In this document: positions 3,075 through 59,128 of the stretch, piece by piece
Layout: every line of letters begins with the position of its first letter
How positions within the stretch are numbered: position 1 is the first letter of the stretch
Source of the DNA: Isoetes taiwanensis
Taxonomy: Eukaryota > Streptophyta > Lycopodiopsida > Isoetales > Isoetaceae
Assembly (NCBI GenBank): GCA_021234155.1
Contig: JAJEKV010000085.1
Span: 2,118,896 to 2,182,895 of the forward strand
Length of the DNA: 64,000 nucleotides
Direction of reading: 5' to 3'
Made by a program: the position numbers and the translations under genes
The notes under the pieces: generated by a model
Told to the model about the DNA's origin: nothing
Database searches by the model: none
What the model saw: the letters and a program-made list of their open reading frames with translations, nothing else

Positions 3075-3090
3075 TCTCCTCAAAGGAAAG
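3075..3090 (-). other. Element A candidate polypurine tract
   Basis: On the minus strand the purine-rich GAGGAGA abuts the 3' LTR, where plus-strand DNA synthesis starts in LTR elements. Position is right; the tract is short and interrupted upstream. Confidence 0.4.
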
Positions 3091-3697: not shown

Positions 3698-3730
<33 letters not shown>

Positions 3731-4930: not shown

Positions 4931-6439
4931 TTATGTGGAAGCAAATAGGCTCAAGCATGCATGCTGAGGCCAATATCTCTTAAGATGCTGAATGTTAATA
5001 GGATTTGGCAGCTCTAAACCTGTATTAAGATCAATCAGCCTATAAGATGAGCAAACCAAATTTCTCCTAGAATCGATAAGGACCTTCCCAAGGATTTTCA
5101 AATTTAGATAGCTTACCTTCATTCTGCAAAGATTCCATTTGAGCACCAGCTCTAATGGAGAAAATTTATCTTGGAGCTTGTGAGCTGCCTTAAAAGCTGC
5201 TGCACTCCTAGCTTTCTTAAGTAGATTGAGATTTTCTGCATCAAATCTATCCTCATCCAATTTTAGCAAAACTTCATACCTGTGTTTTAATGCTTCAGTA
5301 AACTCCAGGTCCAATTTGAGTGCCATCCTCAATGAGGGAATTTCCAACTCAACAGGAATAACTGCTTCAACTCCATAAACCAAACTGAAAGGAGAAGCAT
5401 TAGTAGCAGCTTTAGCAGTGATTCTATGAGCCCAAAGGGCATCATATAATTTCAAATGCCAATCTTTTTGGTTTTGGCAAACTGTCTTCTGCAAAATACC
5501 CTTAAGCACTTTGTTAGTAGACTCAGCTTGGCCATTTCCTTGAGGATAATAGGCTGAGCTTTTCACATGCCTGATTTTGAGACTTGAGACGAGAAAATTA
5601 ATAACCTCATTAATAAAAGTAGAGCCTCTATCAGTCAAAATTTTAAAAGGGATGCCAAACCTAGAGCAAATGTTTTCATGTAAAAATCTGGCAGTGGTAT
5701 ATGCATTTGCTTTTCTCAAAGGTGCTGCTTCTGACCATTTGGTAAATAGATCTGTGGCTACAACAATGTATTCATGCTGGGCTGAAGATGGGGGATTTAT
5801 AGGGCCAACATAATCTAGTCCCCAAACTTGAAATGGACCTGGGGACACAATTCCAGTAAGAGGGGCAGGATGCAAAATTTTCTTACCAAATATTTGGCAT
5901 TGGTGACAAGTTTTTATGACATGATAACAATCTCTAAATAGATGAGGCCAGAAATATCCAGACCTTAATATCTTCTTGGCAGTTGTGTCTGCTGCAAAAT
6001 GACCACCACAAACACCTTTATGATTCTCAGCAAGTACCAGGGCAGCCTCATCTTCATCAACACACCTTAGAAGAACACCATCCCTGTTTACCTTGCACAA
6101 AATGTCACCAACCAATGAGTAAGTCAAACATTTTAACTTAAACTTGTAAGCTTGGCTTTTTGAAAATTCAGAAGGTATCTCTTGATACTGAAGGAATCTC
6201 CTGATAGGTTGTTGCCAACCTTGAGCTGGCATAATTGACACGTCCTGCTCATTTACAACAAGGTTAGTCATTTCTTCTTCTTGTACCACCTCCTCATGTT
6301 CAAAGTAGGCAGCAGGCAGGTATAAACTCGGGTTGTTCAATACATGAATAACCTTTACCTTTAAATCATAAGATTGAAGCCTACAAGCCCACCTATGAAG
6401 CTTAGGTTTTTCTAATTTCTTACCATACAAAAAGGGCAT
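4931..6439 (-). CDS. Element A integrase with end of RNase H
   Basis: 502-codon open frame. It begins in the tail of the Ty3 RNase H (KPKLHRWACRLQSYDLKVKVIH). It then shows the integrase HHCC zinc-binding block (HKGVCGGHF then CHQC, about residues 140-180), and a catalytic core with D in GLDYVGP, D in ILTDRGSTF and E in GQAESTNKVLKG, spaced as in the D,D-35-E family. The C-terminal part is the usual variable integrase tail. It would insert the element's cDNA into the genome. It is the longest intact frame of element A. No chromodomain is seen. Confidence 0.92.
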   Translation of the reverse strand: MPFLYGKKLEKPKLHRWACRLQSYDLKVKVIHVLNNPSLYLPAAYFEHEEVVQEEEMTNLVVNEQDVSIMPAQGWQQPIRRFLQYQEIPSEFSKSQAYKFKLKCLTYSLVGDILCKVNRDGVLLRCVDEDEAALVLAENHKGVCGGHFAADTTAKKILRSGYFWPHLFRDCYHVIKTCHQCQIFGKKILHPAPLTGIVSPGPFQVWGLDYVGPINPPSSAQHEYIVVATDLFTKWSEAAPLRKANAYTTARFLHENICSRFGIPFKILTDRGSTFINEVINFLVSSLKIRHVKSSAYYPQGNGQAESTNKVLKGILQKTVCQNQKDWHLKLYDALWAHRITAKAATNASPFSLVYGVEAVIPVELEIPSLRMALKLDLEFTEALKHRYEVLLKLDEDRFDAENLNLLKKARSAAAFKAAHKLQDKFSPLELVLKWNLCRMKVSYLNLKILGKVLIDSRRNLVCSSYRLIDLNTGLELPNPINIQHLKRYWPQHACLSLFAST

Positions 6440-7157
6440 GGGGTTCTCACATGTAGATAGTGGCTTGGGATTTTTTGTAAAAGATGACCCCTGTCTCGAT
6501 CAAAAAGATGAGGGCAGCAGCACTCCTTTCTATCTTAGCATACTTCTCTTCAGTTTGAGACCATTGTTTGCTTGCAAAAGCAATAGGGTGTCTATCCTGC
6601 AAAATGGCAACTCCAAAGACCTTTTTTAGTGATAGTTATGTAAACTTTAAATGGTAATGAAAGGTCTGGAGTTTTTAAAAGTGTAGAATGGCAAATAGCC
6701 TCTATGATCTGCAAAAAAGCTTTTTCACACTCATCAGTCCAAACAACAGGCCTATATTTACTTTCTCTTTTACTAACTTGGCCTACTCTAGTCAACTTAG
6801 AGATAGGACTAATAAGGTGAGAGAAATTAGGCACATACACTCTTAAGAAAGAGGTCATTCCCATAAATCCCTTGACTTCTTTAATTGTCCTGGGTGTTTG
6901 AAGCTTTTTTAAAGCTATGATCTTCTCTTCAGCTACTTGAAGGCCTTTAGCAGAAACCTCGTGGCCTAAGAGCTGGCCTTTTGATGCCAAAAAGATGCAC
7001 TTCTTTGGGTTTAGATTAACTCCAGTTTGTCTGCACAATGTAAATATTCTTGTTAGCTCTGAAATATGATCACTTGTATCGATTACCTAAGCATAAATCA
7101 TCCGATAAACTCAAATTGCTCAGAGTCATGTTTGCAAAGACAAGATCCATGGCTCTC
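6440..7157 (-). pseudogene. Element A RT C-terminus and Ty3-type RNase H (broken)
   Basis: Frame 7038-6592 holds the RT thumb/connection (LNPKKCIFLASKGQLLGHEV, KEVKGFMGMTSFLRVYVPNF, ending near VYITITKKG). Between 7157 and 7039 the catalytic Y-x-D-D region is scrambled by stops; an LSDD-like word is all that remains. From 6591 to 6440 a different frame carries RNase H pieces (HPIAFASKQWSQTE..). The reverse transcriptase of this copy is dead. Confidence 0.8.
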
Positions 7158-8117
7158 TCAAAATGTGGCGAGGGCATTCATTAAGCCAAAAGGCATCCTT
7201 TTCATTGCATAAGTTCCCCATGGAGTAATGAAGGATGTCTTTGACTGATCTTCCTTTTTGATGCTAATCTGATTAAAACCAGAGAAACCATCCAAAAATG
7301 AGTACATAGACTTGCCAGCCACTGCATAAAGTATTTCTTCTAAAAAAGGCAAGGGATAACAATCTTTAATAGTAGCCTTATTAAGATCTCTATAATCTAC
7401 ACAAATTCTCAAAGAACCATTTTTTTTTAATACTGGAACAATGCATGAAACCCAGGAAGGATTCACAATAGGCACTACCAAACCTGATTCCTGCATTTTA
7501 AACAGCTCTTGTTTGATAAGATCCAAAAGTGAAGAATTAATTCTTCTCAACTTCTGCATAACAGGTTTGGCATCTTCTCGAACCTTAATTTCAAACTCAC
7601 AAATTTTTTTATCAACCCCTTTCAGTTCTGAATACTCCCAAGCAAAAACATCCACCCAATCCTCAAATAACTCAACCATTTTACCTTGATCACCTTCATT
7701 ATATAAGTCTCCCATTTGCAGGGTCCTAGATATACCTCCTTTATGCACTTCAAGCTCTTTAAGTGATTCCTCTTGTGCTAGGTTGATAGTTAAGATGGGA
7801 TGGAATTGGGAAAGCTCCTCTTCATCTAAGACATCCTCTTGAATAGCTCCTTCAGACAAATACTCCATAAGGGTTTTTCTGCACAATGAGTCAGCTTCAA
7901 AATTTTTAGATCTAGGAATATGTAAAATCTCCCAATGATCAAAAAAAGTTAATAATTCTCTGGCTTGAGCACTCAGATCCTCCATGTCTTGATGTTTAGT
8001 TCGATATTCTCCCAAGATTTGTCTACAAACAAGTTGTGAGTCTCCATAAATAACAATATGAGAAATACTCATACACCTTGCTTCTTGTAAACCTGCAATG
8101 AGGGCTTTGTATTCTCA
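7158..8117 (-). CDS. Element A second RNase H (C-terminal part) followed by reverse transcriptase N-terminal half
   Basis: The frame starts in an archaeal-type RNase H: EYKALIAGL just upstream (after a TGA at 8115-8117), then HIVIYGDSQLV (catalytic D), ILHIPRSKN and EADSL (catalytic D). The RT follows: palm and fingers with QELFKMQESGLV, NGSLRICVDYRDLNKAT, YSFLDGFSGFNQI (catalytic D) and MPFGLMNALATF. So the extra RNase H lies before RT, not after it. The first D of this RNase H (WFDGG) is in the preceding frame (8162-8860). Confidence 0.85.
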
Positions 8118-8161
8118 CGCATTAGAAGAAATATTAGGGTGAATTCTCCCTATCTTAGTCA

Positions 8162-8860
8162 TCAACTTAAAATCGCATCCTTCAAAATAGCAGCAGAAGA
8201 AGCAATCCCCAGTTTTTTTGACATACCTCCATCAAACCAGAGATAGGCTTTTTTTGCCTTCAGATCAGGAGATTCAACATGCACGTAAGCAAAGTTGACA
8301 ACCTCTTCATGTATACTAGCATCCAGGCCTAAATTGTAAACACCCAAATCTTCTTCCTGTAGTATGTCCACATCTATGAACCTAATGTTAGCAGATGGAT
8401 CAGTTTTGTTTGCCGGTTGACGTAAGTTGCTCCATTGGAAATGGTGCAAGTGCCTTCGCACCATACAGTGTCCGCATCCAATCGCTTTCATCCATCTCCT
8501 TCCTAATAATAGATCATAGATATTAGCTTGATTGACATTTTCAAAATCAACAACCACAAATGTGGCCAGCACAATGATTCCCCCTGTATTCACAGATACA
8601 TTTCTTACTATTCCCTTAGGCACAACTTTAGCATTTGAAAAAGATTTTAGAACAATGGAAGTATTATCTTCTACCTTGAGATCCAGTGCCTTCATAACAT
8701 GATAAGGCATAACATTAAGAGAAGAACCTCCATCCAGCAAAACTTTGTCTAGATGGGAAGTTCCTATAGTAGCACTACAAGTAAAAGCACCTGGATCTTC
8801 AGTTTGCTCAGGCAAAGCCACAGAAATATTGTTGCGGGTTTTCAGCAGCAACCTCTTCAA
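8162..8860 (-). CDS. Element A protease plus start of the extra RNase H
   Basis: Retropepsin-like motif VLLDGGSSLNVMPYHVM (about residues 40-56), the Tat-lineage variant of the usual DTGAS, and the second motif YDLLLGRRWM near residue 120. After about 80 linker residues the frame enters an RNase H strand, AYLWFDGGMSKKLGIASSAAIL, which carries the first catalytic Asp. The frame ends at 8162. One-base breaks separate it from gag and RT. Confidence 0.8.
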   Translation of the reverse strand: MKRLLLKTRNNISVALPEQTEDPGAFTCSATIGTSHLDKVLLDGGSSLNVMPYHVMKALDLKVEDNTSIVLKSFSNAKVVPKGIVRNVSVNTGGIIVLATFVVVDFENVNQANIYDLLLGRRWMKAIGCGHCMVRRHLHHFQWSNLRQPANKTDPSANIRFIDVDILQEEDLGVYNLGLDASIHEEVVNFAYVHVESPDLKAKKAYLWFDGGMSKKLGIASSAAILKDAILS

Positions 8861-9040
8861 TATCTGGAGTGCTTTTGATCAACTTTTCCCTGTATGATGG
8901 TGCAATTCTCAGCAGAGTTAATAAATCCACAGTAACCTTAGAATTTTTCATAAGTAATTCAAATTCATCCAACTCAGAATCTTTCTGTTTATACCTTTGA
9001 GCAGGAGGAGGAGCTATATTCTGAGGATCTGATTGAAATG

Positions 9041-10362
9041 TTACCTTATGAGGTGGAATGTAACCTCAGAGATGCATTTGGATGAGCTCGCACGCGTCCG
9101 CACAACCATAACATCTTGCTCTTCCTGTTCTCCTGCACAAGTCTCAATAAAACTTATATTTGACATTTGTTTACCTTTATCTTGTTTTTCAAAATAAGCC
9201 TTAACACTGCAATACTTCTCCTCATGACCTATTTCCTTGCAAAAAGAGCAAACAGGACATTCTCTACCAAAGTGACCTCTTCTATGACACTTAGGACATT
9301 GCCTTGCAAAACACTGCTCAGCTCTATGGTAAGGTTTACCACGGTTTGTGCATTCGAGGTGGGGCATCTTTACCGTTTTTAATTCAAGAAGTTGTTTGGT
9401 AACTTCCAAAAGTGCCTCGAACACTTTATCGATCTCGTGATTTCATCTACGAAACATGAGGATCCAATTCTTCAGCCTTGGACTTCTTCTTCTCTTTTTG
9501 TCTTTGCATAAAACAGGGAGCAAAGCATTAGCAAAATGTAAATCATGTTCGGTTCCATGATGAGGAGGATAAAATGGATCTCCGATCTCTTCATCGGGGA
9601 AGATAGCTTAATAGTTCCGGATCTACCTTTACAAATGTTTTATGGATAGAATCCAACTCACCAAATTTTTTGTAATTTTAATAACTTCCTATAGATCCTA
9701 GGTCTAGACATCAAACCTCTGATAAAGGAAGCAACTAGGTGCAATGTTGGATGAGTAACCTGATTCCTGTTACACACTAGCAAATAAGAATTAAATCTCT
9801 CCACATACTGCTTTACACTCTCACCAGGTCTAATGGAAAATGAGTTGAGTTCAAAGACAAGATCCTGAGGTGAAGTAGCCTTACCAAACCTTGATAGAAA
9901 CTTGTGTTCCAATTCATCCCCTTTGGTACCTATAGACAGCTCAAAATCGAGCCAAGATCTGGCCTCATCACCCTTCATGCATTTGATGAATTACGCAAAC
10001 CCGAACCCTTTCTTTCTCCCATGTTCTTCATAATAGTCTTCAAAGTTTTTAGAAAATGGTTGGCATTCATGGAAGAATCATAGCAAGGGGGGGAAACAGT
10101 ATAGTCAACTCAAAATGATAAGGTGTTGATGGAGGAACAGACCGAAAGGTGTTGATCCGTTCAAAAAGTTTATGAATTTGTGAAGAAGAGGGCACTGAGA
10201 GGAAATATTTGTAATATTTGTAGACCCATAGAGAGGAGCCGGTGGAGGAATAGGCAAGTTGGGAGTATTTGTAGCATTAGTGGTAGATCTGGTAGCCACT
10301 CTCATGCTTACTCCTACCAAATCTGGTTGATTTGTCTCCTCCTGTGGTTCAGCGAGACTCAA
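9041..10362 (-). pseudogene. Element A gag (broken)
   Basis: Pieces in order on the minus strand: N-terminal low-complexity part (10362-10105; no clear ATG, open frame continues upstream through the primer site); capsid core (9978-9658) with ARSWLDFELSI, KFLSRFG and RPGESVKQYVERFNSYL; nucleocapsid (9424-9041) with two zinc knuckles, CPKCHRRGHFGREC and CSFCKEIGHEEKYC. Gag would form the cytoplasmic virus-like particle. At least three frame breaks. Confidence 0.8.
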
Positions 10363-10400
10363 AATCTTCCTTGGCCCATTGAGTTCAATTTCCGTAAAAA

Positions 10401-10417
10401 TCTCGGTGGGACCTCCA
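10401..10417 (-). other. Element A primer-binding site, probably tRNA-Gln
   Basis: Three bases inside the 5' LTR the minus strand reads TGGAGGTCCCACCGAGA, the complement of a tRNA 3' end TCTCGGTGGGACCTCCA. From memory of plant tRNAs, the 3' arm of tRNA-Gln (TCTCGGTGGAACCTCCA) differs at one base. The position is decisive for a PBS; the tRNA identity is inferred. Confidence 0.65.
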
Positions 10418-10420
10418 AAA

Positions 10421-12858
10421 TGTTAGCCTAAAACCTGGAATTTTAGCCTAACCTCAAAGGAAGTACAAAGAAAAACCGGTCAGGGACCTCCGGATCACTT
10501 AGGGTGATCAATCCTCAATCATATAAGCAAAAGAACTCAATTTGAAATGCTAGATTTTTCCAAATCACTACAATCCCCGGGCGTAAAAAAATCAATGAGC
10601 CAAAATCAATCCAAAGAATCACACTTTAAAGATTTTTGAGTTTTGGATTTTTGGTATGGTTCACAAACAAGCAGAGGAAGCTACTGGTGAAAGTCTGTCT
10701 TGATTTGGATAAAGGAAGACCAAGAAAATCAATGTCAAAGCTCAGTCAAAAAGTGGTCAATGCCAAAACAGAGAACCAAAATTTGCAGATGGAGTTTGGT
10801 GACGAATTTTGAGTTGGGATTTGTGCAGACAGCTTCAAAATGAACCCTAGATCACGTGCATAAGGTTTAATTGATAAGCAAACACTATGATTTTTTTTCT
10901 GAGATAGACCACAGACTCAATTTACATCCCACGGTCAGAATGCTTATGGAAAAGCTACTTTTCCTTTGTCTTTTTTGCATATAAACACTACTCAAGTCTA
11001 TTTAAGGATGAGAAATGACTATTAAATTTGGTTTCATCTTGAAATATCTGATTTCTATTGGTTTTGACAGGCAGTAATAGATTTGTAATATGAGAAAATG
11101 CTAACACTATTTTTCCAGGCAGAGAATATGCATTATAACCAGAGATATCACAGGAGTTCTGAAGTCTCAGCAAATAATTCCCAAAATAATGCCTGAGAAT
11201 AAATCTCAAGGCACTTGTGAGCTTCTAAAAATCCGAAATCATCAAAAGAAGAAAATAAGAAGATAATTTGAGTTGTAATAGAAGTTTTGATGTCGGTCAT
11301 CCAAACACACGGTCGGTCTTCAAACACAATGCAGTTAATCTTCAATCTCGAGCAGAATTAGCTGAATTTGGAGTAGAACAGATCATGAAAATATCAAGAA
11401 TATAGAATGCGCCCAGATCACAGAGGTATATCTCCGAGGGGGGTCATTAAATGATCTGCATTCTTGGATTAAAAACTGTCCTTCCCAAAAACCAGCTCGG
11501 TTGAGTGATTTCCGGCCAAATTTGAGCAAGTTTCTATAGATCAAGTGCCACAGAGAGTTCCAGGGGTTTTAAAAAAAGGTCTAGGAGGATGAATCGGGAG
11601 CAAAAGGGCGGGATTCAATCAGATTTGGGCACCAATCAGCCAGATTTAGCAGGTTCCAGAAGTTTAGGGTTTTTGCAAGGCTCGATATATCCCACAGGCC
11701 TAAATAGTTCTGGAAGATAAGGATATAAATTGAAAAGTCCGAGTCAGCTTATTGAATTTGCGTGCCACGCAGAAGGGTTGTGCCATTTCGTGTTACGAGG
11801 CCCCACCTCACGCCACCCGTGGACCAATGGGGGGGGCTGAGGTGGAATTTAGTGATAGGGTAGATATAGGCTAGAATAGGTTTTTATTTTTTATTTTCTC
11901 TGGCACGCATCCCAAGAAATAAATTTTGAGAGGCTTCCCAAGGTCTTTTTTTGATTTTTAAAAAGCCAATTTAGCTCATTTTGGTCAAGCTTCAAATCTG
12001 GAGGGTTTCCAGGTCAAACTGAAATACTCGAAATTTTGGCCCTTTTGACCTTGGTCAATGGATTTTCAAACTTGGAAATGGTGGAAAAAAAACATAAAAC
12101 AAATGGAAAAATGGTGGAAAAAGCTATGGTGGGATTTAGAAGGATGAGATGATGGTAAAAATCAAACTCCATTGCTCTTGAGGTTTTTTATGATCTTTTG
12201 AGAGCAATTTACAAGTGATGGTGAGGCCAATAAAAATATAGGTAGTGAAGTAATGGAAGAGGGTATGAAAAGGTGGAAGTGAGGTATGGAAAGGTGGAAT
12301 AGATGAAGGATGGAAACCCCTCAGAGCACATGATCTTATCTCAAAAGCTCAAATCATACCTTATGATGAACATAGTTTTGCTCAAGGCCTAAGGGTCTTC
12401 CAATCTTCTAAAAAAATCTTCCAAACTTCAAGGCCAATATAAGAGCAAATATCAATTCCCAAGTGACCATCTTCATAAGTGTGACTCCTAAACCATTGGT
12501 GCAACTCAATTAAGCTCCATATAAATGAATTTGAGCAAAATGCTTTGTAGCTCCTTGTATAACTTGCTATATCCTTTGCCTGGTCTTCAAGAAATAAAAA
12601 TGTAACTTAGAAAAACTTCCTCAAAGGAAAGAATTAGGCTATATAAGCAAGATCCCCAGGGTCTTCCAATCTTGGACAAATTTCTTCCAAACTCTAGCAG
12701 GATCAAAATAGCACTAACTCTTACCCCATGAGTGATAGGAAATAACTTAAGATGAAACCTCAAAAGCTAACCACATGTCTTCCAAACTTCAACAAATATC
12801 TTCCAATCTTGAAACTCTAAGTATCATGTTGGTCCATGTTGCCCAAAAAGGGGCAACA
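10421..12858 (-). repeat. Element A 5' LTR (2438 bp)
   Basis: Full-length match to 641-3074 with the same TG/CA ends, followed on the minus strand by the primer site. It abuts Gag-coding DNA of element D at 12859. Confidence 0.93.
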
Positions 12859-13961: not shown

Positions 13962-14335
13962 ATTGCGTTACAATGGGTCCGGGTTACCCAGGGATGCCGT
14001 GACAACGCATCCGCAACCACATTATGCTTCCCAGGCTTATACATAATCTCGAAATCATACTCTTCCAAAAATTCCATCCATCTTCTCTGACGGAGGTTGA
14101 GATTCGGCTGGGTGGATAAATAACGGAGACTTTGATGATCTGTATCAAGCTGAAATCTTCGACCAAGAAGGTAGTGTCTCCAAATGCGCAAAGCGCGGAC
14201 AACTGCTAACAATTCCTGATCATGGGTAGGGTATCGCTGTTCCGTGTCGTTCATCTTCTTTGAATCATATGCAATAACTCTCCCCTCCTGCATTAGGACT
14301 CCACCGGTAGCAATCTTACTGGCATCCGTTGCCAC
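13962..14335 (-). pseudogene. Element B RNase H (truncated by element D)
   Basis: Ty3-type RNase H with all four acidic residues visible: ATDASKIATGGVL (D), HDQELLAVV (E), LDTDHQSL (D) and VVADALSRHPW (D). The frame then runs into the element D LTR; codons beyond 13961 are not original. A frame break near 14440 separates it from RT. Confidence 0.88.
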
Positions 14336-14448
14336 TAGCTTATCCTTTTCGATCGGGCAATGTGAGGACCGGTGCGCACGTTAAAAGCATCCTTAAGCTT
14401 CTGAAAGCCTACACCGACTTTCGCTTTTCCAATGTTCCATCCAATCCT

Positions 14449-15513
14449 TCACCTTCTCATGCTTTGTAAGATCGTAAGAAGAGGTGCGGCAATTGTTGCA
14501 AAATCCTTAACAAATTTCCGATAATATCCTGCGAGTCCCAAGAAACTTCGAACTTCTGAAACATTACCTGGAATAGGCCAATCCCTTACTGCTTCTATCT
14601 TTGCTGGATCTGTAGCAATTCCCTCTGCTGAAATGATATGCCCCAAATAATCCACCTTGGGAGTGGCAAACTTGCACTTAGAGAACTTGACAAAAAGTTG
14701 GTGACGTCTTAACTTTTGCAGGGCCAACCGAAGATGTTGCTCATGCTCTTCCAAAGTCTTACTATAGATGAGAATGTCGTCAAAGAAAATAACAACAAAA
14801 TCATCCAAGTATTGGCGGAAGACGTCATTCATCAACCGCATAAAAGTTGCAGGAGCATTAGTTAATCCAAAAGGCATAACGGTAAACTCATAATGCCCAT
14901 ATCTAGTGCGAAAAGCAGATTTATGGATGTCCTCCTCCTTTATCCTTATCTGATGGTATCCGGAGCGTAAATCAATCTTTGAGAAATATTTGGCCCCTTG
15001 TAACTGGTCCATAAGATCATCTGCCCTAGGCAAAGCATAGCGATTCTTGATGGTATGCTTATTGAGCTGCCTATAATCAATACACATCCTCAAGGAGCCA
15101 TCGTTTTTCTTAACAAAAAGGATAGGGGCGCCGAAAGGTGAAACACTAGGCCGAATGAAACCTAGGTTTAGTAACTCCTGAAGTTGCTTTTTAAGCTCTG
15201 CCAACTCTGGAGGACTCATTCGGTATGGGGCCTTGCTGGTAGGCTTAGTACCTGGTTCTAAAGCTATCTCACATTCTACCCCTCTAAAGGGAGGAAGCTT
15301 CTGGATCTCCTCTGGAAAAAGATCGGTAAACTCTCGGAGAAGACTCGCAATCCCCTCTGGCAAGGTGTCTATGATTTGCTTCTGTTTAGCATCTGAATCA
15401 ATGGATGCAAGCCTGATGACGCAGAGGAGCTTATCCTTGCGTATAGCTTTATCTAACTGCTTGATGGACATAGACTGCATAATAGGGTTGAATGGATCAC
15501 CTTTTATAGTCAC
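14449..15513 (-). CDS. Element B reverse transcriptase
   Basis: 354-codon frame opening at a GTG that overlaps the gag-protease stop by four bases. Motifs in order: [42 protein letters not shown] (catalytic D), [12 protein letters not shown], and [12 protein letters not shown], where F-F-D-D replaces the usual Y-x-D-D, followed by thumb [12 protein letters not shown] and [12 protein letters not shown]. The two catalytic Asp of the D-D pair are present. The frame change from protease may be ribosomal frameshifting or a one-base error. Confidence 0.93.
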
Positions 15514-16601
15514 GCGGGGGCGTTGAAGGTAACTTCCCGTTTCTCGCAGTCTATATTGGCCTTTGCAGATGCCAAGAATTCCATACCAACAATAAGATCA
15601 TATTTGCCAATATCCATTATCTCGGCACCCAAAGCAACTGGTGCACCTGGTAACTGCATCTTAAGGTTGATGCGACCATGAGTATGCCTAATCTTACCAC
15701 TGGCTAAGGTGACGGCCTTCGGTCGGGACCTCAACGTTTCAAGCTGCAATACCTGGGCTATTCTAGGAGAAGCAAAATTATGTGTACTTCCCGTATCCAT
15801 CAAAATTATGAAAGGCTTACTGTCTACTTGGCCTATGGTGGAAATAACAGAAGGCTGACTTTCAGCATTGCCAGTTTCAATGGCTGCAAGGATATGAGAC
15901 GCACCGTGAATGTACTCGGGAGCCTCGTCCTCGACAGGTAGTGTAGACTCCAGATCGTCCCAATCGAGATCGGCCATGGCCAGCTGGGCAGTCTGCGTGA
16001 CGTAAGGGCAATTCTGCATGTAGTGCCCGGGTCGCATACACCTGTAACATGCCTTATCTCTACGTAACTGATCTCGGGTGTCTTTGGGAATAGACTGTAA
16101 AAGATTCCGAACTTCCTTGCCGACATTATTCGGTTTGTCGGGCATGTTGAAGGTGACTTTCTTTTCCTGGCGGGCATAAGAGTTCTGCTGAGAGGGCCCC
16201 GGACTTGGTGAGCGGGGTTTGTAAGGTGTGGACGGGCGTGGCTGCGAGTAAGGAGCGGGGACGAGGATACCGTTCCTTGGTGTGTCCTCCTCGAGGCTTA
16301 ATGCCTTAGCCTCGCCTTCAAATCGATTTCGGTCTATGGCCTTAACCATTCGTTTAATGGATGGGGCCAACCCTTCAATGTAGCCCTCCACCGCCCTCTT
16401 TTCATTCATCCCTGGTACGCGTCTGCACTTCGAGCGCATGAATTCATCAGTGTAGGCCTGAACTGACATACCCTTCTGCGTTAACCTGTAGAAGGTCTGG
16501 ATTTGTTGGCATTTGTGCGCCGCAGGCACATAATGGGACTTAAAAGCCTTGGCAAACTTTTTGAACTTGCACCTGCTTACGTCCGGATGCTTGGCTCGCA
16601 T
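15510..16601 (-). CDS. Element B gag (capsid C-terminus, zinc knuckle) fused to protease
   Basis: 363 codons. Capsid part with [21 protein letters not shown] and [12 protein letters not shown]; one CCHC zinc knuckle [14 protein letters not shown] (about residues 190-203); then a retropepsin with [17 protein letters not shown] (active-site DTGS) and the flap/second motif [10 protein letters not shown]. Ends at NAPA just before the RT frame. It supplies particle structure and processing protease. Confidence 0.9.
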
Positions 16602-17140
16602 AGCCCTTCCACCAAATACGGGCGCTCTGTAGGGTTTGTGGTGGCAACCTTCCCCTGTATCCTTTTACGTCATGCCATAGGATTTCCCAAACTCCTTCAT
16701 TTCGGCCGAGCCAGGACTGCGCATTGAGCCCACCTCTAGATTTACCATCAAATTGGGCCAATTTCCTATTTTTCCATATACTTGGTTATGGTCAGATCAA
16801 CCGCCGTTCACTGGTACTCCTTGTCCCGGCGATGTGCATGGCCACCGGATGACACGACTCGACTCGAAGTCTCGAGGTTGCTTCAGTTGGGAGGAGGTTG
16901 CATCGTCCCTAGAGGAACCTCGATGACGTTTGGAACGGTGCCTCCCTCTGTCTGCACGTCGCAGACTAGATTCAGTGCGTAAGGCTGCTGTGGTGGGGAC
17001 TTGGTGGTAACGGAGGTAACTCCTGGTCCATCCTCCCCGACATGCCATGGTGGGTTGACATTTAGTACATAAGTCCGCAACTCAACTAGTTGCCTCTTCA
17101 TCAACATAAGTTCCTTTCCAGGGGTTAACCTCTCCGGCAT
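16540..17140 (-). pseudogene. Element B gag N-terminal region (frameshifted)
   Basis: Two frames, 17140-16883 (starting MPERLTPGKELMLMKRQLVE) and 16761-16540 (QFDGKSRGGLNAQSWLGR..WWKG), look like consecutive parts of one Gag N-terminus separated by a frame break near 16800-16880. The second is an FDG...W..G capsid start typical of gypsy Gag. The frame upstream of 17140 is open only to about 17215. Confidence 0.6.
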
Positions 17141-17377
17141 TCGAGGGTGTTCGCCAGCGGCGTTAGATGCACCGCCTATATTGGCGTAAAAAGATGTAAA
17201 GCGAATTTCAGAACATCAAGTCTCACAACAAGATCATTTTGGGTAGTAATGAAGTAAGAGTGAATAAGAGAAGACAAGAGAAAAGATTTTGATTATAAGT
17301 CAAAACAACTGTTACATTGAAGAACTTCACACTGAAGGTAGTTATCAAGTTAAAGTTATATAATACACAAGTGGATT
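17141..17377. other. Spacer between the histone-fold cassette and gag of element B
   Basis: AT-rich, no gene. On the minus strand it could be the 3' UTR of the gene ending at 17378 and/or the gag leader. I looked for LTR ends (TG..CA) followed by a tRNA-type primer site here and found none. Confidence 0.5.
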
Positions 17378-17901
17378 TTATACATTGGGTACTTCCTTAG
17401 TCACACTGAAGCATAGCAAAACAAAACTGAGGGGTCCGGACCTAGGGGTTCGCAAAAGGGTACATAATAGAATAGCGAACACTTTCCGCGTCATGACTCG
17501 ACGAAGCTTGTAACGTGTCCAGGCCTGGACGATAACAGGTTGGTAGTCCCATGTGGGGCTAATAATAAGGAGATTGAAAAGCCTCCTTAATGCATAGAAG
17601 ATTTGCCATAAGTAGTCGTTGGCATCCTCGAAAGCTTCGTGGCTGGACATATTCCAATAGTCCCATGTGCGGCGAAGGGTCTGCTTCAGGTCGTCAAAGG
17701 CTCATTCCCTAAGAATGTTAACTACCTCCATCCCCTTGTCTGGATCATAAGGCTCTTCTGGCTCTGCGGATTCCTCCATCTCATAATCACCGTCTCGTTC
17801 CGGGTACTCCCCATATCTTTGGCCGTAATCTTGTTCGGGAGGCCCTGGATCATATCGTATCAGGTCGGTAATTCGTTCTTCATACTCTTCGAGTGTCTCG
17901 T
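17378..17901 (-). pseudogene. Possible H4-like histone-fold gene or exon in element B, with in-frame TGA
   Basis: A pyrimidine-rich tract and TTGCAG end at 17902, so 17901 looks like an exon start (phase 1); no in-frame ATG is near. The frame has an acidic stretch (YEMEESAEPEEPYDPDKG), a TGA at 17702-17704, then continues open to 17378. After the TGA: LRRTWDYWNMSSHEAFEDANDY, then LWQIFYALRRLFNLL, then PVIVQAWTRYK. I align MSS-H-AFEDANDYLWQIF with H4 ISGL-IYEETRGVLKVFL, and VIVQAWTR with VVYALKR. The spacing between these anchors is 36 residues against 38 in H4. H2B is an alternative reading. Similarity is weak; the neighbouring H3 and H2A genes make it plausible. Confidence 0.35.
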
Positions 17902-18144
17902 CTGCAAGACGACATGAATAAATATATATACATTGAACAATTTTCTTATACTCCAACTTTAAGGAAGAGAATTAAACATTGAAGGGAAAAGACAATTGAA
18001 TGGTTTTCAACAGTACAAGAAAATATAAGGAGATATCCTGTATATATATAAGAGAATAGTACATAGATTATGTGATGGCCCCTTAAAGGTAATGCCAATC
18101 AAAATTACATAAAATTGGATACATTTGTCTGATAAGATCTAGAA

Positions 18145-19555
18145 CTAAGAAGTGGACCCCTCAACATCTTGTGCTTGGGTATCAAACTCAGGCTCTGGTC
18201 GATGCTGCAGGAGTAGCACACTAGGGTTAACTGATGAGGCAGCTGATGAAGCTATCTCTGGAGGAACATTTGTAGCCAATGGCGCTGCAACCAGCAGACT
18301 CATGTTCATCCAAGAACCGATATCGTGGTCAAATACTGCAATGGCTAGATCACGATTTACCAGGACGATCTGCTCAAGGTTAGTGGGCAACTTCTTATGG
18401 CCGGCGGTCGTAGAAAGTGCCCTAAGTGCCCAAACAGCCGCCTCTGCTTCAGGTGCAATGGCTTTAGCAAAGAAGAGAACTTGTCTACTTGTAAAAGCCG
18501 ACAAGAAGAACCGGGTAATATGGCATTTCAACCCCTGAACCGTCGGATGGGTTGAAGAAGCCAATTCAGACTCCAAGTTTTGGGGCAGTTCCTCTTCCAT
18601 AGCAAAATCCTTCTCCTCTTGAGCATACTGGCCTTCATCACATAGATCTTCCATAGTTGGGTCATCTTCGATCTTGACGACGACATCGTTGATGTTGGGC
18701 ACATGTGGCCCCGTAGCATGGAAAGCCGATTCAGGAACTGAGGACGGAGTACCCTGAATCATTAACTGGCGTAAGGATAAGAGTGTGCTGATAGGCTCAA
18801 CATCAAGAGGCTGATAGTTGAGCAGTTGGTGGATCTCTGGCACATAAACGGGTCGAGAATAATCGATGAAGTCGTTCTGACCCTGGCAATACTCGGCCAG
18901 CTCATAGAGAAGATGAGTCGTCTTCTGCTTACCCTTATTGGCGATATGCTGATATGCCCATTGAATGTCGCTCAGCAGCAAGTAATCTTGATCCCCAACC
19001 TTAATAGTAGAAAGGGAGCTTAAGCCGACAAGAGCTTGACCCTTACTACGAGGTAAAAGGCTTCTCTGTGGCCAATTTCTTCCATCTTACAAAGTCGGCA
19101 TAGCTGATCTGCTCATCCTCCTCAGGATCTGGAGGAAGTGGGAACTTGGCTTGCTCTAAGGCCGTGTCGGTGCCGTCAATATACCTATCCATGATAAGAG
19201 CAAGGGCAAATTGGGCCTCAAAATACAGCTCGTTAGAGCCACAGTCAATGATGGGGGCGTGCTTAGCACGTCTGAGAATGCCCTTAAGAATATCATAACT
19301 GTGGCGATCATCCCCAAACATGTGCTCTAAGATATCCCTATGAAGATAGGGTTAAGGCGGCTCTCCGAAAAACTCTGCCTGGGGCAGGATTTCCTCATCA
19401 TAAAACTCTAGGAAGGTGCCATAGTCAGGGTGTGCCCGCATGTTGTCGATGAGGTCGACTGTACACTGCAACATGGGATCCAAGAGAGGGTAGGGAACCT
19501 GAGGATCCCATTGCTCGCCTCCCATGTACCATGCTAGGCGCCCAGCGTAATCCAT
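18145..19555 (-). CDS. Two-exon gene with divergent histone H2A domain (possible H2B-like domain before it), in element B
   Basis: Exon 1 19555-19091, exon 2 18999-18145, joined in frame across a 91-base intron; 439 codons. A TAA at 19352-19354 (codon 68) interrupts exon 1, the frame staying open on both sides. The H2A part is 18537-18253: GLKCHITR (H2A GLQFPVGR), AIAPEAEAAVWAL (GAPVYLAAVLEYL), VNRDLAIAVFDHDI (IPRHLQLAIRNDEEL), then a docking-like VAAPLATNVPPEI. From the R of GLxxxxxR to AP is 19 residues (18 in H2A), and to the R of NRD 53 (52 in H2A), so alignment is nearly gap-free. Upstream, LSDIQWAY resembles the H2B helix SREIQTAV and IMDRYI resembles VFERIA, suggesting an H2B-H2A doublet; this is weak. 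Basic tails are absent and linkers are acidic. Start chosen at MDYAGRLAWYMGG. Confidence 0.7.
19000..19090 (-). other. 91-base spliceosomal intron in the H2A-like gene
   Basis: Donor GTAAGA after codon TTT, acceptor TACTATTAAG after a pyrimidine-rich tract. Removing it joins ISYADF to VGDQDYLLLSDIQ in frame; without splicing the frame meets TAG TAA. The size is typical of plant introns. It lies on the sense strand of a retroelement, so genomic RNA would have to stay unspliced while a subgenomic RNA is spliced. Confidence 0.65.
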
Positions 19556-19609
19556 TACTGCAGACGGAAGATGGGAGGAGGAAGAAAACGGAAGGAGTAA
19601 GAAATAATG

Positions 19610-19618
19610 AAACCCTAA
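19610..19618 (-). promoter_or_regulatory. Telo-box upstream of the H2A-like gene
   Basis: aaaccctaa on the plus strand, 55 bases before the ATG at 19555. Telo-boxes are plant promoter elements of growth- and S-phase-linked genes. The H3-fusion gene has the same motif upstream. Confidence 0.45.
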
Positions 19619-19636
19619 AATGAATGTCAGTTTTAA

Positions 19637-21050
19637 ATTTTCTGGGCACGGCGTTCGAGGCGCCAGCTCATTATTGCTATTTTCTGGGCACGGCGTTCGA
19701 GGCTGCCCATTATCGCCAACCCTGTTTGGCATTTTCATAGACGAATTGGAAGAATGGCTCAAAGATCAATCATTACAGGGCACACAAATAGGTAACTGTC
19801 TTATTCAGTTGTTGTTATACGCAGATGATATCGTATTGCTAGCCAACAAAAAGCAAGTATTACAGAAACATCTACACGGGCTGGAATTATTCTGCATTGC
19901 AAAGGGGATGAAGGTAAATATAGATAAGTCCAAAATTATGGTTTTTGGTACAAGGGAGAGACCAGATTTCTTATATCAGGGTCAAGCTCTTGAAACAGTA
20001 GAATGCTACAAATATTTGGGCATTGATTTTGCTTCAAATTACAGCTGGAAAGATTGTGTGAAAAGAAGAGTCACAGGAGGAAAATCAGCCTTATACAGCA
20101 TGCTAACAAGATGTAATAAAGCTGCATTAATTGATTGGGAGCTGAAAAAAACGCTTTTCAAGACTCTTGTGCAAACGGTGTTGTTATATGGTACACCAGT
20201 ATGGGGACCTGGATGTCCGGCTAAGCTATGGAGCCAAGTAGAATCCGTGCAAAAAATGTTTATACGAGAAGAGCTTGGGATCAAAGCTCAAACTCCGTAT
20301 GCAATAATGCTAGCAGAAGTTGGGTTGCTACCTCTCGAGCTTGAAGCTCTTTATCAAACTGTAAACTTTATGAACAGGCTACAAGAACAAGAGTCAATCC
20401 GAATCTCCTATCAAGCTATGGCAAATTCAGAACAAGGGTGGCTCAGAGATTTCTGGAATTGGGCAAAAAAATGGGGATTATCGGAAGCAAACTGGCCTAA
20501 TGATAAAAACGAAGCTAGAACCTTATTGGAAAAGCTTGCAGTGGATAGTTTATGGGCTGCCCCGGGCAGCAAAATGTCTTATTACAGAAATACAGTTAAT
20601 GATATGAGAGAGTACAAGAGCCAAGCTTATCTATGCTCAGATATTCCAAAGGCATATAAACGAGTAATGGCTAGATACCAAACCAGCTCTCATCGGCTAG
20701 AGATTGAAGTAGGCAGATGGTTTAACATTCCCATGGAAGACAGGAAATGTAAGATATGTGGCGCTGGAGACGTGGAGGATGAAGCCCACATCTTTTTGCA
20801 CTGCACAGCATATGAGCATATAAGGGAGGAGTTCGAGGTACACATAGACAGTTTTTATACATTGTTAAATCTGGAACCATTCTTTGTAGGAGAGTATATG
20901 AACAGGGTGGATACACACCGTACATTTTTGTTAAAGTTGTGAATATTTGCTCCATGGCCTTTCAAGGTCCTAAGTGAGCACTAGACATTTAAATAAATAA
21001 ATAAATTTAAATAAATAAATAAATATTTATTTATTTAATTATTTCTCTTT
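19637..21050 (+). mobile_element. 5'-truncated LINE inside element B
   Basis: Plus-strand non-LTR element: RT-domain ORF, short 3' UTR, and a taaa-type tail (20985-21040: repeated taaataaataaa). The left end holds a 25-base sequence present twice (19637-19661 and 19679-19703, period 42), so the true junction is unclear. I could not find a convincing target-site duplication. It separates the H3-fusion and H2A-like genes. Confidence 0.8.
19680..20942 (+). CDS. LINE ORF2 C-terminal half: reverse transcriptase and C-terminal zinc knuckle
   Basis: Enters at RT block 4 (RGCPLSPTLFGIFIDELEEW), then LLLYADDIVLLANKK (catalytic YADD), KSKIMVFG and YKYLGIDF, the thumb, and a C-terminal CKICGAGDVEDEAHIFLHC cysteine/histidine knuckle. 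About 420 codons fully open to the TGA at 20942, so a young insertion. The endonuclease and RT N-terminus are missing: 5' truncation, usual for LINEs. Any ATG upstream is fortuitous. Confidence 0.9.
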   Translation, partial: FSGHGVRGCPLSPTLFGIFIDELEEWLKDQSLQGTQIGNCLIQLLLYADDIVLLANKKQVLQKHLHGLELFCIAKGMKVNIDKSKIMVFGTRERPDFLYQGQALETVECYKYLGIDFASNYSWKDCVKRRVTGGKSALYSMLTRCNKAALIDWELKKTLFKTLVQTVLLYGTPVWGPGCPAKLWSQVESVQKMFIREELGIKAQTPYAIMLAEVGLLPLELEALYQTVNFMNRLQEQESIRISYQAMANSEQGWLRDFWNWAKKWGLSEANWPNDKNEARTLLEKLAVDSLWAAPGSKMSYYRNTVNDMREYKSQAYLCSDIPKAYKRVMARYQTSSHRLEIEVGRWFNIPMEDRKCKICGAGDVEDEAHIFLHCTAYEHIREEFEVHIDSFYTLLNLEPFFVGEYMNRVDTHRTFLLKL

Positions 21051-21165
21051 TTTTTCTGATATGCGTACATAAAGAAAGAAAATCATACGATGACTAATAA
21101 GTCAAAACAAGATTTGTATTAATATATACCAAATTACATAGATACAAAAATGTTGTTTTACATAA
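21051..21165. other. 3' flank of the H3-fusion gene
   Basis: Short AT-rich stretch between the LINE tail and the H3-fusion stop codon. No plant histone hairpin or clear terminator recognised. Confidence 0.3.
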
Positions 21166-22521
21166 TCATGGCCGTTCCCCACGGATCCGGCGTGCTAGCT
21201 GAAGGTCCTTTGTCATGATCATCACTCGCTTGGCATGAATTGCACATAGATTTGCATCGCCAAAGAGGGCCACCAAATAGGCCTCGGCTGCCTCCTGGAG
21301 TGCTAAAATGGCATGAGTCTGAAACCGGAGATCTGTTTTAAATTCCTGAGCAATCTCTCGGACCAGACGCTGGAAAGGAAGTTTCCGTAGCAGAAACTCG
21401 GTGGATTTCTGGTACTTCCTTATTTCCCTAAGTGCCACGGTGCCAGGCTTGTAATGATGCCTCCTCTTAGGCTGGGGTGGAGCTCCGGGAATAGTTTTCC
21501 CGGCTGTCCTCGGATGCCGGGCCTTTCGGATGATTTCATCTTGCCAGTTGTCCCCTGCAGCCTTAGCGATACTACCCCCAGCCTTGAGCTGATCCTTATA
21601 TTGGGCATCCGACTTACGGGGCGTCTTCTTCAGTCTTCGGCGAGGCATAGGAACATCCGGAGGTGGCGGATCTTGCCGGTGTCGTTCTTCCGCTTCTTTC
21701 CTCAGGCGCTCCTTTACTGCCTCTGTTACCTCGTCCGCCCTCTGCTCGGCTTCCTCTTGCATTCTTTTTTCGTTCTGCTCCTGTTCTAGCTGCTGCGCTT
21801 GGAGGGCATCTTCGCAAAGCTTAGCAGCCTCCTCAAGTATTTGAATTGCCCTGTGTGATTGCGCCAGGAGTGCGGCCTGCTCCTCCGCTCGCTTCTCCCT
21901 GGCTATTCGAATATCCGTTCTTCTTTTAAGCTCCAGGAAGTAGCGTGGAGGGTTGGCCTGCATGTCCCGCTCGACAGCCCGCTGGAATTGATCTGTGAAG
22001 AATGGGGGTGTTCCAGCTTCCCAGATGATGCGATTAGTCTCCTCTTCATATGAAAAAGCTGGAAGGATGTAGGATCCCCCATCAAAGAGGCACATCCCAT
22101 TCCCAAGGTAGCGGTACCCTGAAGCTGGGTCATCGGTAGCAAGCCATTGCAGGTCCGCCGCTTGTGCCATTTGCAGGATGTTTTGGGCCTGCGTTTGTAT
22201 GGCCTCGGCCTCAGCTTGTTCGTTCCCTTCCGGTGGAAAGTATCGTGTATATTTCTGGACACCATCTTTCTGCTCAACTACGATGTACGTTTCTTGGATG
22301 GCGTTAAGCTTGTACACGAAGCGCTCGTTATAGCAAAAGAGCGGAAATGGTATCCTAACTCCTTCATAGAAGCGTTTGACAAAGTACTCCAGTAGCTCCT
22401 CAGTTTTAGCCTCCTCTTCTGGCGATGGGTTTGAGTGTGGCAACAGTTGGGCCATTAGAGACTCTATGGGAGTTTGAGAATGACGAGGCTTGCGCTTGTA
22501 TACCTGCTTGACTTCCTCCAT
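21166..22521 (-). CDS. Fusion protein: novel N-terminal domain, coiled coil and C-terminal histone H3, in element B
   Basis: 451 codons, uninterrupted. Residues 1-195: globular region I do not recognise ([28 protein letters not shown]). About 196-285: charged helix/coiled coil rich in E, A, R and Q. 286-357: proline-rich then basic H3-tail-like linker with KTPRKS, resembling QTARKS around H3 K9, and [10 protein letters not shown] before the core. 358-451: H3 fold with [55 protein letters not shown] and [10 protein letters not shown], ending exactly where H3 ends. HAIL after QT resembles HAVL of plant H3.3. Loop 1 is not lengthened, so it is not CENH3. Start ATG chosen because MEEVK follows a stop-containing leader. 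It should enter nucleosomes with H4 or bind chromatin; the fused N-terminus may add a retroelement-specific function. Confidence 0.92.
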
Positions 22522-23082
22522 CTTGAATAAGTGGGCGATGGGTGGGCGCTTGGGAGAGAAAGGTAAGGGACGAGGTCTGGCTATGGCGGAGAGAAGCTTC
22601 CAGTTCCGGCGGCTATGGCGGCTAGGCGGAGCTCAAGAGAGCACTAGGCGTTAGGAAAAATGAAGGGAAAAGTTACCCTTAACTAAATCTGAAATTTTAA
22701 CCCTAAATTTTTTTTAAAAGAAAAAGTGGCGGAACGCGCTTTTCGAGGTGGCGGGCACCCCCTACCTCGACGTCGCTACGGCCGCTAGAACGCCCCGGTG
22801 CCCCCGCCGCACTTAGGGTTAGGGTTTTTTTTTTTTTTAAGGTGGCGGGCACCCCTACCTCGTCGCCACCGCCGCCCGGCAACACCGGTACCCCCCGCCA
22901 CTTAGGGTTAGGGTTTCGCACCGGGTACACTTCTCTTAATTACACTTAAACCACATTAAGTCAATCATGACGACATCTACTACACCACCCAAATCTCATA
23001 CTACTCCAAAAATCCTCACTCACTAGCTAACGATCTAACGAAGTTAGTATGTGGCGGTCAATAGTTTGGCTTCCCGAACCAT
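22522..23082 (-). promoter_or_regulatory. Leader/promoter region of the H3-fusion gene in element B
   Basis: Between primer site and ATG. Contains AACCCTAA (22699-22706) and the two GC-rich units with TTAGGGTTAGGG (22747-22916). 22522-22680 is a pyrimidine-rich 5' UTR on the minus strand. No ORF with recognisable product; the 22703-22930 ORF is over the repeat and not a gene. Confidence 0.45.
22747..22916 (-). repeat. Two tandem GC-rich units, each ending in telomere-like sequence
   Basis: Units at 22747-22829 and 22841-22916 share ggtggcgggcacccc, ctacctcg, a ccccgcc-acttagggttagggttt end, and diverged middles. Each ends with TTAGGGTTAGGG, close to the plant telomere repeat TTTAGGG and to telo-box promoter motifs. 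A T-run separates them. Confidence 0.7.
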
Positions 23083-23093
23083 GCTCGATACCA
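23083..23093 (-). other. Element B primer-binding site, initiator tRNA-Met type
   Basis: One base inside the LTR the minus strand reads TGGTATCGAGC, close to the common plant PBS TGGTATCAGAGC, with one base missing. It fixes the direction of element B and shows that the DNA from here to gag is internal sequence. Confidence 0.65.
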
Positions 23094-23094
23094 T

Positions 23095-24733
23095 TGTGAC
23101 GCCTCCGAATATATATATGACCCCGTGGATACATGCGAGGACTTTCCCTCCCATGGCGACCATCTACTCACATGGCGGCTCCTCCCGTCTAACCCGGCCA
23201 TCTATGGAGAGATGCCCGAGTGAAGGACACGGAGGTGTCATTCGCCCACGCCTTCAGTGGGACTCCTAAGTCGCGGAAGCGTGAATACATGTTAGCACAC
23301 AGCACGAATATATATATAAATAACCACCACGAAGGGTGGAACATCCATCCAAATACCAACGGCAAAGAATATGCATCTGATCCTAAGGAAAACACCCCAA
23401 ACCCCGTGTTCTACCCGTTTTGCACTCACGTGCAGATAGACCGACGCTCGGCCTCAAGAGATCAGCGGATAGAGGTATAACCCGGCGCGCTGCCCGCATA
23501 GAACATCGGGCTAGGGTTGTCCACTCCATCCCAGCCCCGCGGCAATACTTTTGCGCGATGAGTCGAATCATGCTATGGCGTCCACTATAGCCTTCCGGAT
23601 ACGCAGACTTAAGGTATCACCCTTCGAGCCTACTACGGGGGTTCATGAAGCCCCGTCCCCGATGAGGCAGGTCGGGAAGCGCCCCTTCCGTGATCACACG
23701 TGGGTTCCATGGGTGGACTAGGAGAATACGTGTCGCATCGGTGACCCCCGCATCCGCACAGGCCTTACTACCTAAATCTACTCAGTACAGATGCCCCATG
23801 CGGGTCATACCCCCTCAGCATTCGTGGAGTGTCGGACCCATACCCTCCCCGGATCGCGCCTTAGCTCACCGGGCCGGGCTATTAGGCCTAGTCCAGCGTA
23901 GGAGTCTCGAGCCTTTTATGTTCGTGCAAGACCCCACCCCCACTTCATCATGTCCCCTTGTTTGGTGCTAAGTCACCTCCATAGCATCCACGACTCGGTG
24001 GTCTCTTGTACACAGTCATAACTAATGGGATAATACTGTGGCTCTATCTAGGGCGCACTACAATACATGGGCTCAAAGGTCTCTATCCCCCCAAATTCCC
24101 CATTTCAAGAGTAATACTATGCAAAGAACTATCAATCCATCTTTTAAGAGCAAGACCGAGCAGAAATAAAGAGAACTCACCTTTACAATCAAGGGTTAGT
24201 TCCTACAAGTAAAACATAGAGAGAACAGAGAAACAAACACAACCAAGGTGCCCAACAGGCCACCCTAGAATTCTCAAGCCACACTAGCCACCCACTGAAG
24301 TTCTACTGGACCCGTTATCATTTGGTGCTTCCATCTTCCTGGGTCTTGGTGCTCAGCTTCAGCTACACAGGTACAAGTGCTTGGTATGGTGGCGCCGGCT
24401 TGCGGGTAGGGTAGCCTTCACGCCTCCTTTTGGACGAATTTTGGGAGTCAATTAGGGATAGGGATCGGGTTGACAGCCACTTGGAAGTCCCCATGTCGGC
24501 CAATTTATTTAGCCAACTGGCGCCTTCCCAAAGCATTAATTAACCTAATTAATCCATTTAAACCTTAATTCCCTAAATTATAGGTTATTATCTTTAATGA
24601 TTAAATTAGCATAGCTAATTTAATCCCTTTTAGGTCAACCCCCTAGGTTACAATACCCCATGGTGGCGTACCTTTGATGGGTGACGTATCGGTATATTTA
24701 TACATATACCGTATAAATACGTGGAACGTCACA
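23095..24733 (-). repeat. Element B 5' LTR (1639 bp)
   Basis: Plus strand runs from TGTGACGCC to GGAACGTCACA, a TG..CA unit with inverted ends (TGTGACG/CGTCACA), next to the primer site. The outer 60 bases hold a palindrome (cggtatatttatacatataccg at about 24690-24711) and a TATA-rich part. A second copy is not in the window, so the call rests on ends plus primer site. Short ORFs inside (23051-24212) have no family features. cttat (24734-24738) would be the target duplication. Confidence 0.65.
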
Positions 24734-24768
24734 CTTATCGTTTACATTTATATGGGAAATGAACTAAC

Positions 24769-59127: not shown

Positions 59128-59128
59128 A

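Follow-up and report, generated by a model that had tools for sequence, protein, structure and literature searches.

A histone H3 fusion gene carried between the primer site and gag of a chromodomain-type Ty3/gypsy lineage in Isoetes taiwanensis

An H3-fusion gene within element B

The stretch of DNA analysed here (the window) comprises 64,000 nucleotides of Isoetes taiwanensis (C1095:2118896-2182895), and genome searches covered 1,658,258,908 bases in 1110 contigs of the same species. The window contains much of a long terminal repeat (LTR) retrotransposon, called element B in the following, which is a Ty3/gypsy element of the chromodomain type lying on the minus strand (Table 1). Element B belongs to a lineage that carries, in many copies, a captured histone H3 gene and two further open reading frames (ORFs) between the primer site and gag.

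The C-terminal end of the 451-amino-acid H3 ORF matches the Pfam family PF00125 (E 2.6e-39, 134.7 bits, cut-off 26.4), as do all ten members of the alignment of fusion proteins (A3), and in the PDB the fusion matches H3.3 (2.2e-50), the match covering residues 370-487 when the frame is counted from stop to stop. A first-pass annotation, made from the letters of the window, had placed an H3-fusion gene on the same strand as the LTR, and this gene is confirmed. The fusion protein of the window contains one Histone match, located at its C-terminus, and is not a doublet of two core histone folds as in viral doublets. The canonical N-terminal tail of H3 is absent and a domain of about 330 amino acids stands in its place. 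Read from its sequence, this domain is long, basic and coiled, with a low-confidence predicted helix at residues 191-283. It has no relative in the PDB, where no histone match was found either, and nothing at E<=0.001 was found among the approximately 8000 best candidates scored from a large protein set. A DUF5960 match in one of ten members, below the Pfam cut-off, was taken as chance. Structural models of the window proteins, built from single sequences, were poor (mean predicted local distance difference test scores of 34.7 and 49.3). Before the H3 fold, a short motif resembling the surroundings of K9 was noted by eye, reading VARKS in copy L028 (3139-4371), TPRKS in the window (22521-21166) and KPVKS or KPVKG in others.

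The surroundings of the fusion gene are those of an LTR retrotransposon, as first annotated: an LTR with TGTGACG/CGTCACA ends is followed by the primer site TGGTATCGAGC, which we take to be of the initiator-Met tRNA type, and gag, protease, reverse transcriptase (RT) and RNase H lie downstream on the same strand, all with Pfam matches. A genome search with the LTR gave at least 55 matches (40 of 7678 candidates scored), the best non-self match among those listed being C1095:2098496-2100131, 87% identical. Because this partner lies on the same strand and ATAAG is found outside both outer ends, the LTR at 24733-23095 belongs to B and does not pair with a different element. The left end of B, missing from the window, was thereby recovered, with remnants of integrase and chromodomain adjoining the 3′ LTR. 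The two LTRs differ at 206 of 1603 sites (Kimura two-parameter distance, K2P, 0.142), hence B is an old copy. Its pol region is split at 13961 by a nested LTR element, which starts TGTGACGACC, has GCAAT on both sides and runs leftwards to about C1095:2102256, the whole insertion measuring approximately 30.6 kb by coordinates. B resumes near C1095:2102255 and extends in full over C1095:2098496-2143628, approximately 45.1 kb including nested insertions.

Table 1. Features of element B in the window, in the order of the element; LINE, long interspersed nuclear element; the slash in splice motifs marks the exon-intron border
Feature	Position	Strand	Remarks
Target-site duplication ATAAG, outside 5′ LTR	24734..24738	-	identical bases outside 3′ LTR, C1095:2098496
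5′ LTR	23095..24733	-	TGTGACG...CGTCACA ends; 3′ partner 87% identical
Primer binding site TGGTATCGAGC, initiator-Met-like	23083..23093	-	directly after LTR
H3-fusion ORF, 451 amino acids, intact	21166..22521	-	same ORF in 20/20 further loci
N-terminal domain of fusion, replacing H3 tail	21547..22521	-	matchless in protein set; best PDB E 0.35
Histone H3 fold, residues 339-447	21181..21507	-	PF00125 2.3e-39; PDB H3.3
Putative intron, by comparison	17176..22503	-	donor CAG/GTATAC, acceptor AATATAG/; exactly missing in L043; window bases checked
LINE-type RT frame	19611..20942	+	RVT_1 1.8e-16; inserted between H3 ORF and middle ORF
Middle ORF, broken in window (third histone-fold and H2A-like genes of the first-pass annotation)	18145..19555	-	single frame elsewhere
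Third ORF, one internal stop in window	17378..17901	-	AG acceptor just upstream at 17903-17902
gag, N-terminal part	17175-16883	-	further upstream of main gag-protease match
gag and protease	15510..16664	-	Ty3_capsid 1e-9, Retrotrans_gag 4.1e-9, RVP_2 1.2e-13
RT	14449..15597	-	RVT_1 5.7e-40
RNase H	13962..14380	-	RT_RNaseH 2.3e-33; B interrupted here

Other copies, selection and origin of H3

A search of the genome with the Histone family scored at least 150 matches out of 8705 candidates, and those listed comprise ordinary H3 genes plus many H3 folds in open frames of 440-494 amino acids. Twenty further copies, picked for long H3 frames, were fetched with their surroundings. In these selected copies the arrangement of the window recurs: the N-terminal part of the fusion and the H3 fold are present in all 20, window-like LTR DNA upstream in 19 (all except L025), the middle ORF in 19 (all except L011), the third ORF in 16 (all except L009, L011, L018 and L020) and gag-protease downstream, on the same strand and within the piece, in 16 (all except L012, L017, L018 and L020). 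Among the 16 gag-positive copies, L009 has another LTR in between and the gag match of L021 is weak (30-36%). Four copies (L021, L024, L025 and L027) form a window-like group, in which the N-terminal part of the fusion is 76-88% identical to that of the window, while in a distant group this identity is approximately 30-39%, L028 standing apart (28-29%). Genome-wide, at least 126 matches were obtained for the N-terminal part of the fusion (123 of 4345 candidates scored), at least 88 for the middle ORF (88 of 6920) and at least 115 for RT (115 of 34336), such candidates not being equal to confirmed copies.

The 3′ side was fetched for five of the 20 copies. Both LTRs were found in L022 (96.6% identical, K2P 0.035), L016 (95.9%, K2P 0.042) and L013 (97.4%, K2P 0.027), which are complete copies of approximately 12.5-13.2 kb by coordinates. 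Two of them have perfect 5-bp target duplications (GTGGC/GTGGC in L022 and AATCC/AATCC in L016) and the third has GCTAG/ACTAG, with one mismatch. In L027 the 5′ LTR is partial (91.4%, K2P 0.092), and an LTR pair of L025 was looked for on the fetched 3′ side and not found. The primer site TGGTATCAGAGCC and the polypurine tract AAGGAGGGGAGAA are present in L022, L013 and L016. The gene order is gag, protease, RT, RNase H and integrase, with integrase following RNase H in L030 and in B. After integrase, a chromodomain matches PF00385 in L033 (5.8e-9) and L031 (1.2e-8); it was not recognised in the piece of L022.

The family was also approached from the side of pol. From the first 30 of the 115 RT matches, eight were taken for which inspection of the listed matches by eye showed no neighbouring H3, and 2.2 kb upstream of each were fetched. 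Five of the eight have both H3 and the middle ORF upstream (L035, L036, L039, L040 and L041), several of these H3 folds being broken or diverged, so that the possibility that other gag-pol copies generally lack H3 was not borne out. In L037, the middle ORF lies upstream of RT and the fetched piece begins just before it, which leaves H3 outside the piece. L034 retains the middle ORF and lacks H3, and both are missing in L038. L034 and L011 have lost part of the module through deletions at tracts rich in A or T, and not through splicing.

The ratio of nonsynonymous to synonymous substitutions (dN/dS, NG86 method) was calculated between copies with open frames. With the reservation that a sample picked for open frames and H3 score biases the ratio downwards, the median for the H3 fold is 0.029 in the window-like group (10/10 pairs) and 0.033 in the second group (105/105 pairs, range 0-0.159), and values of about 0.03 are reached at dS 0.5-0.8. 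Ratios are 0.119 (10/10 pairs) and 0.153 (76/105 pairs usable) for the N-terminal domain in the same two groups, 0.081 (one pair) and 0.159 (10/10 pairs) for the middle ORF, 0.112 (12/28 pairs usable) for the third ORF, and 0.159 (one pair) and 0.076 (two pairs) for RT, which was available in three copies only. Between the groups, dS is saturated in all 75 pairs for the H3 fold and the N-terminal domain and in all ten for the middle ORF, and comparisons of L028 with the others gave usable dS in 1/20 pairs (H3) and 4/20 (N-terminal domain). The ratios thus point to strong purifying selection on the H3 fold, well below the values for the other ORFs of the element (0.08-0.16).

These ratios argue against a captured gene without function that was multiplied along with the element. 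Capture of gene pieces by transposable elements is common and H3-less copies exist, but a dN/dS of about 0.03 at dS 0.5-0.8 and a module common to distant subfamilies, between which the fourfold sites of the H3 core have reached saturation (a difference of 0.71 between groups), already disfavour such a passenger, which we consider highly improbable.

The difference at fourfold sites of the H3 core is 0.74 to the host H3, whereas in RT the between-group difference is 0.29 and 0.35 in the two pairs available. L024 shows the reverse pattern, with a window-like H3 fold (94%), an RT only 72% identical to that of the window and a gag-protease 51% identical. Because the divergences of H3 core and RT disagree and L024 is a mosaic, modules may have been exchanged between subfamilies, for example by template switching. 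At the protein level, comparison of the H3 core of six copies with host H3 at 97 positions gave identities of 86-90%. A tree was built from 21 element and five cellular H3 cores, three of the latter entered by hand, and in it the two sets are split by one branch (support 98/97; 99% of 200 bootstrap trees, the bootstrap not having settled). In addition, all 21 element cores read D-A-N where the five cellular cores read D-T-N. A single capture of H3 would be the simplest reading of these data.

Two further ORFs and a spliced copy

The first-pass annotation had read a set of histone-fold genes between primer site and gag. The H3 gene and the recurrent arrangement stand, and the other histone folds are not supported: the H2A-like gene and the possible third histone-fold gene are parts of one broken ORF (19555-18145), which is unbroken, as a single frame of 482-502 amino acids, in L014, L025 and L027. 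Its Pfam matches are weak and not histones (TBX2-3_RD, 0.036, in the window ORF; Sos7, 0.12, and PepSY_TM, 0.23, in one member each of seven). No histone was matched in the PDB, either with a single sequence or with profiles A1 and A5, the N-terminal part giving a weak unrelated match (eL14, 0.026), and nothing at E<=0.001 was found among the approximately 8000 best candidates scored from the large protein set. The H2A reading, persuasive by eye, was dropped, as the Pfam and PDB matches contain no histone and hhalign scores against H2A are at shuffle level; the single-sequence model is too poor to judge an H2A fold. The third ORF has no Pfam match in eight copies and a weak unrelated PDB match (poxvirus G9 proteins, 0.24). 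As to a reading of it as H2B-like, hhalign did not exceed shuffle level, giving 14.6 against a shuffle maximum of 15.5.

The N-terminal part of the middle ORF scored 18.95, 18.4 and 18.2 against H4 in hhalign, above shuffle maxima of 13.9, 16.5 and 14.2 and level with the true pair H3-H4 (18.8). Among 44 comparisons, each controlled by few shuffles, this score ranks highest, its hhalign probability is about 3%, and other small excesses are noisy: region 80-190 reached 14.6 over 12.8 against H2B, and the C-terminal part 11.9 over 10.9 against H4, with a reversed control at 13.9. We treat the H4-like score as a lead. That the element encodes several core-histone folds is a separate question, compatible with any role of the H3 fusion. 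The H2A-like appearance of the C-terminal part of the middle ORF and the H4 score speak for it, but with H2A at shuffle level, no histone among the Pfam and PDB matches and an H4 score of this kind it is very unlikely. By the tests run, the middle and third ORFs appear to be further conserved ORFs, with H3 the sole recognised histone.

The element upstream of whose RT both H3 and the middle ORF are missing (L038) runs on in L043 (C1028:10562330-10565400), where LTR, primer site and leader are followed directly by gag, without H3; gag-pol is open in this copy, and the frame holding RT measures 1354 amino acids. When L043 is set against the window and L027, the segment running from the border in CAG/GTATAC, which follows the sixth codon of the H3 ORF, to that in AATATAG/, where gag begins, is missing. 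The exact break is uncertain by the two bases AG, and one of the placements corresponds to a perfect GT-AG intron. L043 is read as a retrocopy of a spliced RNA, suggesting that the module was removed as a GT-AG intron in at least one reverse-transcribed RNA. The donor in L021 reads AAGTATAC, and the alignments of L024 and L025 stop short of it. The gag acceptor is at its place in 13 of the 21 sequences scanned, from both groups. The start of the third ORF was located in 13 of 21 sequences scanned, 12 of which have TTGCAG in front of it, and in L014 the first ATG of the third-ORF frame appears only at residue 101.

Possible roles of the H3 fusion

The silencing of retrotransposons by their hosts depends largely on marks carried by the tail of histone H3. 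A tentative reading, to which we give somewhat less than an even chance, is that the element-made H3 fusion enters nucleosomes and counters the silencing of element chromatin. Unspliced RNA would yield the H3 fusion and spliced RNA Gag-Pol. The H3 fold would pair with host H4 and join nucleosomes, which would be closed to the usual tail marks since the canonical tail is replaced by the element domain, and the N-terminal domain could recruit partners. The net outcome would be element chromatin shielded from silencing. Such a role is consistent with a nearly complete H3 fold (86-90% identical to host H3), with a module that sits inside LTRs and target duplications, with the spliced copy L043 and the gag acceptor in 13/21 sequences. 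The low dN/dS of the H3 fold would likewise be expected if the fold has to match conserved partners. In addition, the chromodomain (PF00385) in two copies shows that the lineage already carries a chromatin-reading domain.

Several observations weigh against silencing being countered in this way. A K9-like motif may be retained before the H3 fold, which would weaken the notion that the fusion cannot be marked, and the selection estimates carry the sampling bias given above. The existence of H3-less copies (L034 and L043) means that an element does not require H3 in cis. When the genome was searched for the joined junction, one exact match was obtained, L043 itself, and hence a single exact spliced copy; the other four matches have two mismatches each and are at control level, the control having given three matches. 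Spliced copies are thus either rare or hidden by divergence. The leaders share no donor common to all copies, GTRAGK being found in 11/18. Finally, in the comparison with L043, codon 6 of the H3 ORF is joined to gag out of frame, and gag would therefore need its own start codon.

A more elaborate form of this proposal, in which we have little confidence, is that the lineage builds silencing-proof chromatin: on copies of the element, an H3 lacking the normal tail would take the place of host H3, perhaps together with a diverged, H4-like product of the middle ORF as its partner, and a splice switch would balance chromatin protein against Gag-Pol. If so, the chromodomain and the H3 encoded by the element would each contribute one half of a self-recognition system.

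The H3 fusion could instead serve the particle or the pre-integration complex as a cofactor that compacts cDNA or tethers it to chromatin, leaving silencing unchanged. The conservation of the fusion gene together with the replication genes would fit, as would the long, basic, coiled N-terminal domain with its low-confidence helix (191-283). However, no similar known particle protein was found among the protein-set candidates scored or in the PDB, and the selection on the H3 fold resembles that on a nucleosomal histone; we regard the cofactor role as rather unlikely. Somewhat more doubtful is a broad disturbance of host chromatin, as proposed for viral histones, in which many loci including elements would be derepressed. 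A bracovirus encodes a histone H4 as one of its virulence genes (PMC9145170), but a vertically inherited element would gain little from wide damage.

Core histones occur in other parasites as well, and a transposon carrying H3 is already known. Two reports describe hAT transposons with an H3-like gene in Pyrenophora tritici-repentis (PMC3538342) and with H3 in Pseudocercospora and related fungi (PMC6710886). As in Isoetes, the captured H3 multiplied to tens or hundreds of copies in these fungi (PMC3538342, PMC6710886), and in Pyrenophora the gene is accompanied by another ORF whose function is unknown (PMC3538342). In contrast, the fungal elements are DNA transposons with inverted repeats and without LTR, gag or RT. 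Moreover, all amplified Pseudocercospora copies were inactivated by repeat-induced point mutation (PMC6710886), whereas the Isoetes H3 fold appears to be under strong purifying selection and is fused to a large new domain. With chromoviruses, the element shares LTRs, primer site, polypurine tract, gag-protease-RT-RNase H-integrase and chromodomain, and differs by an added module of approximately 5 kb, composed of the H3 fusion and two ORFs, between primer site and gag.

Giant viruses (Marseilleviridae, medusavirus) resemble the element in that a core histone is encoded by a mobile or viral genome, but they are DNA viruses with fused or full histone sets (PMC9145170), while only H3 is recognised in the Isoetes element, and it looks like a eukaryotic H3 of recent type close to host H3. 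Similarly, CvBV-H4 of a bracovirus is a core histone encoded singly by a parasite, with the potential to act in the chromatin of the host; it is an H4 of a wasp-derived virus (PMC9145170), as opposed to an H3 of a retrotransposon. In literature searches, at the level of titles and abstract openings, no LTR element encoding a core histone was recognised, and the word "histone" occurs 0 times in the main text of the I. taiwanensis (PMC8566536) and I. sinensis (PMC10541799) papers. Within the reach of these searches, a core histone in an LTR element is new.

With this lineage, LTR elements are added to the few kinds of parasite that have core histones, and the direct prediction is that element chromatin carries an unusual histone. 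The lineage also provides a naturally occurring H3 fusion with which to study what silencing requires of H3. Where "histone H3" genes are counted in such genomes, copies belonging to elements may be among them.

Elsewhere in the window, a second LTR element (702-12709) adjoins the nested element that interrupts B; it has LTR-like direct repeats at 702-2925 and 10484-12709 and RT and integrase frames on the minus strand. Repeated blocks approximately 21-24 kb apart and 61-96% identical (D5, D7, D10, D12 and D14) lie at 35368-37858 and 58234-61123, and at 52504-53483 a 92-base block repeats at a spacing of 888 bases with 86% identity (D20).

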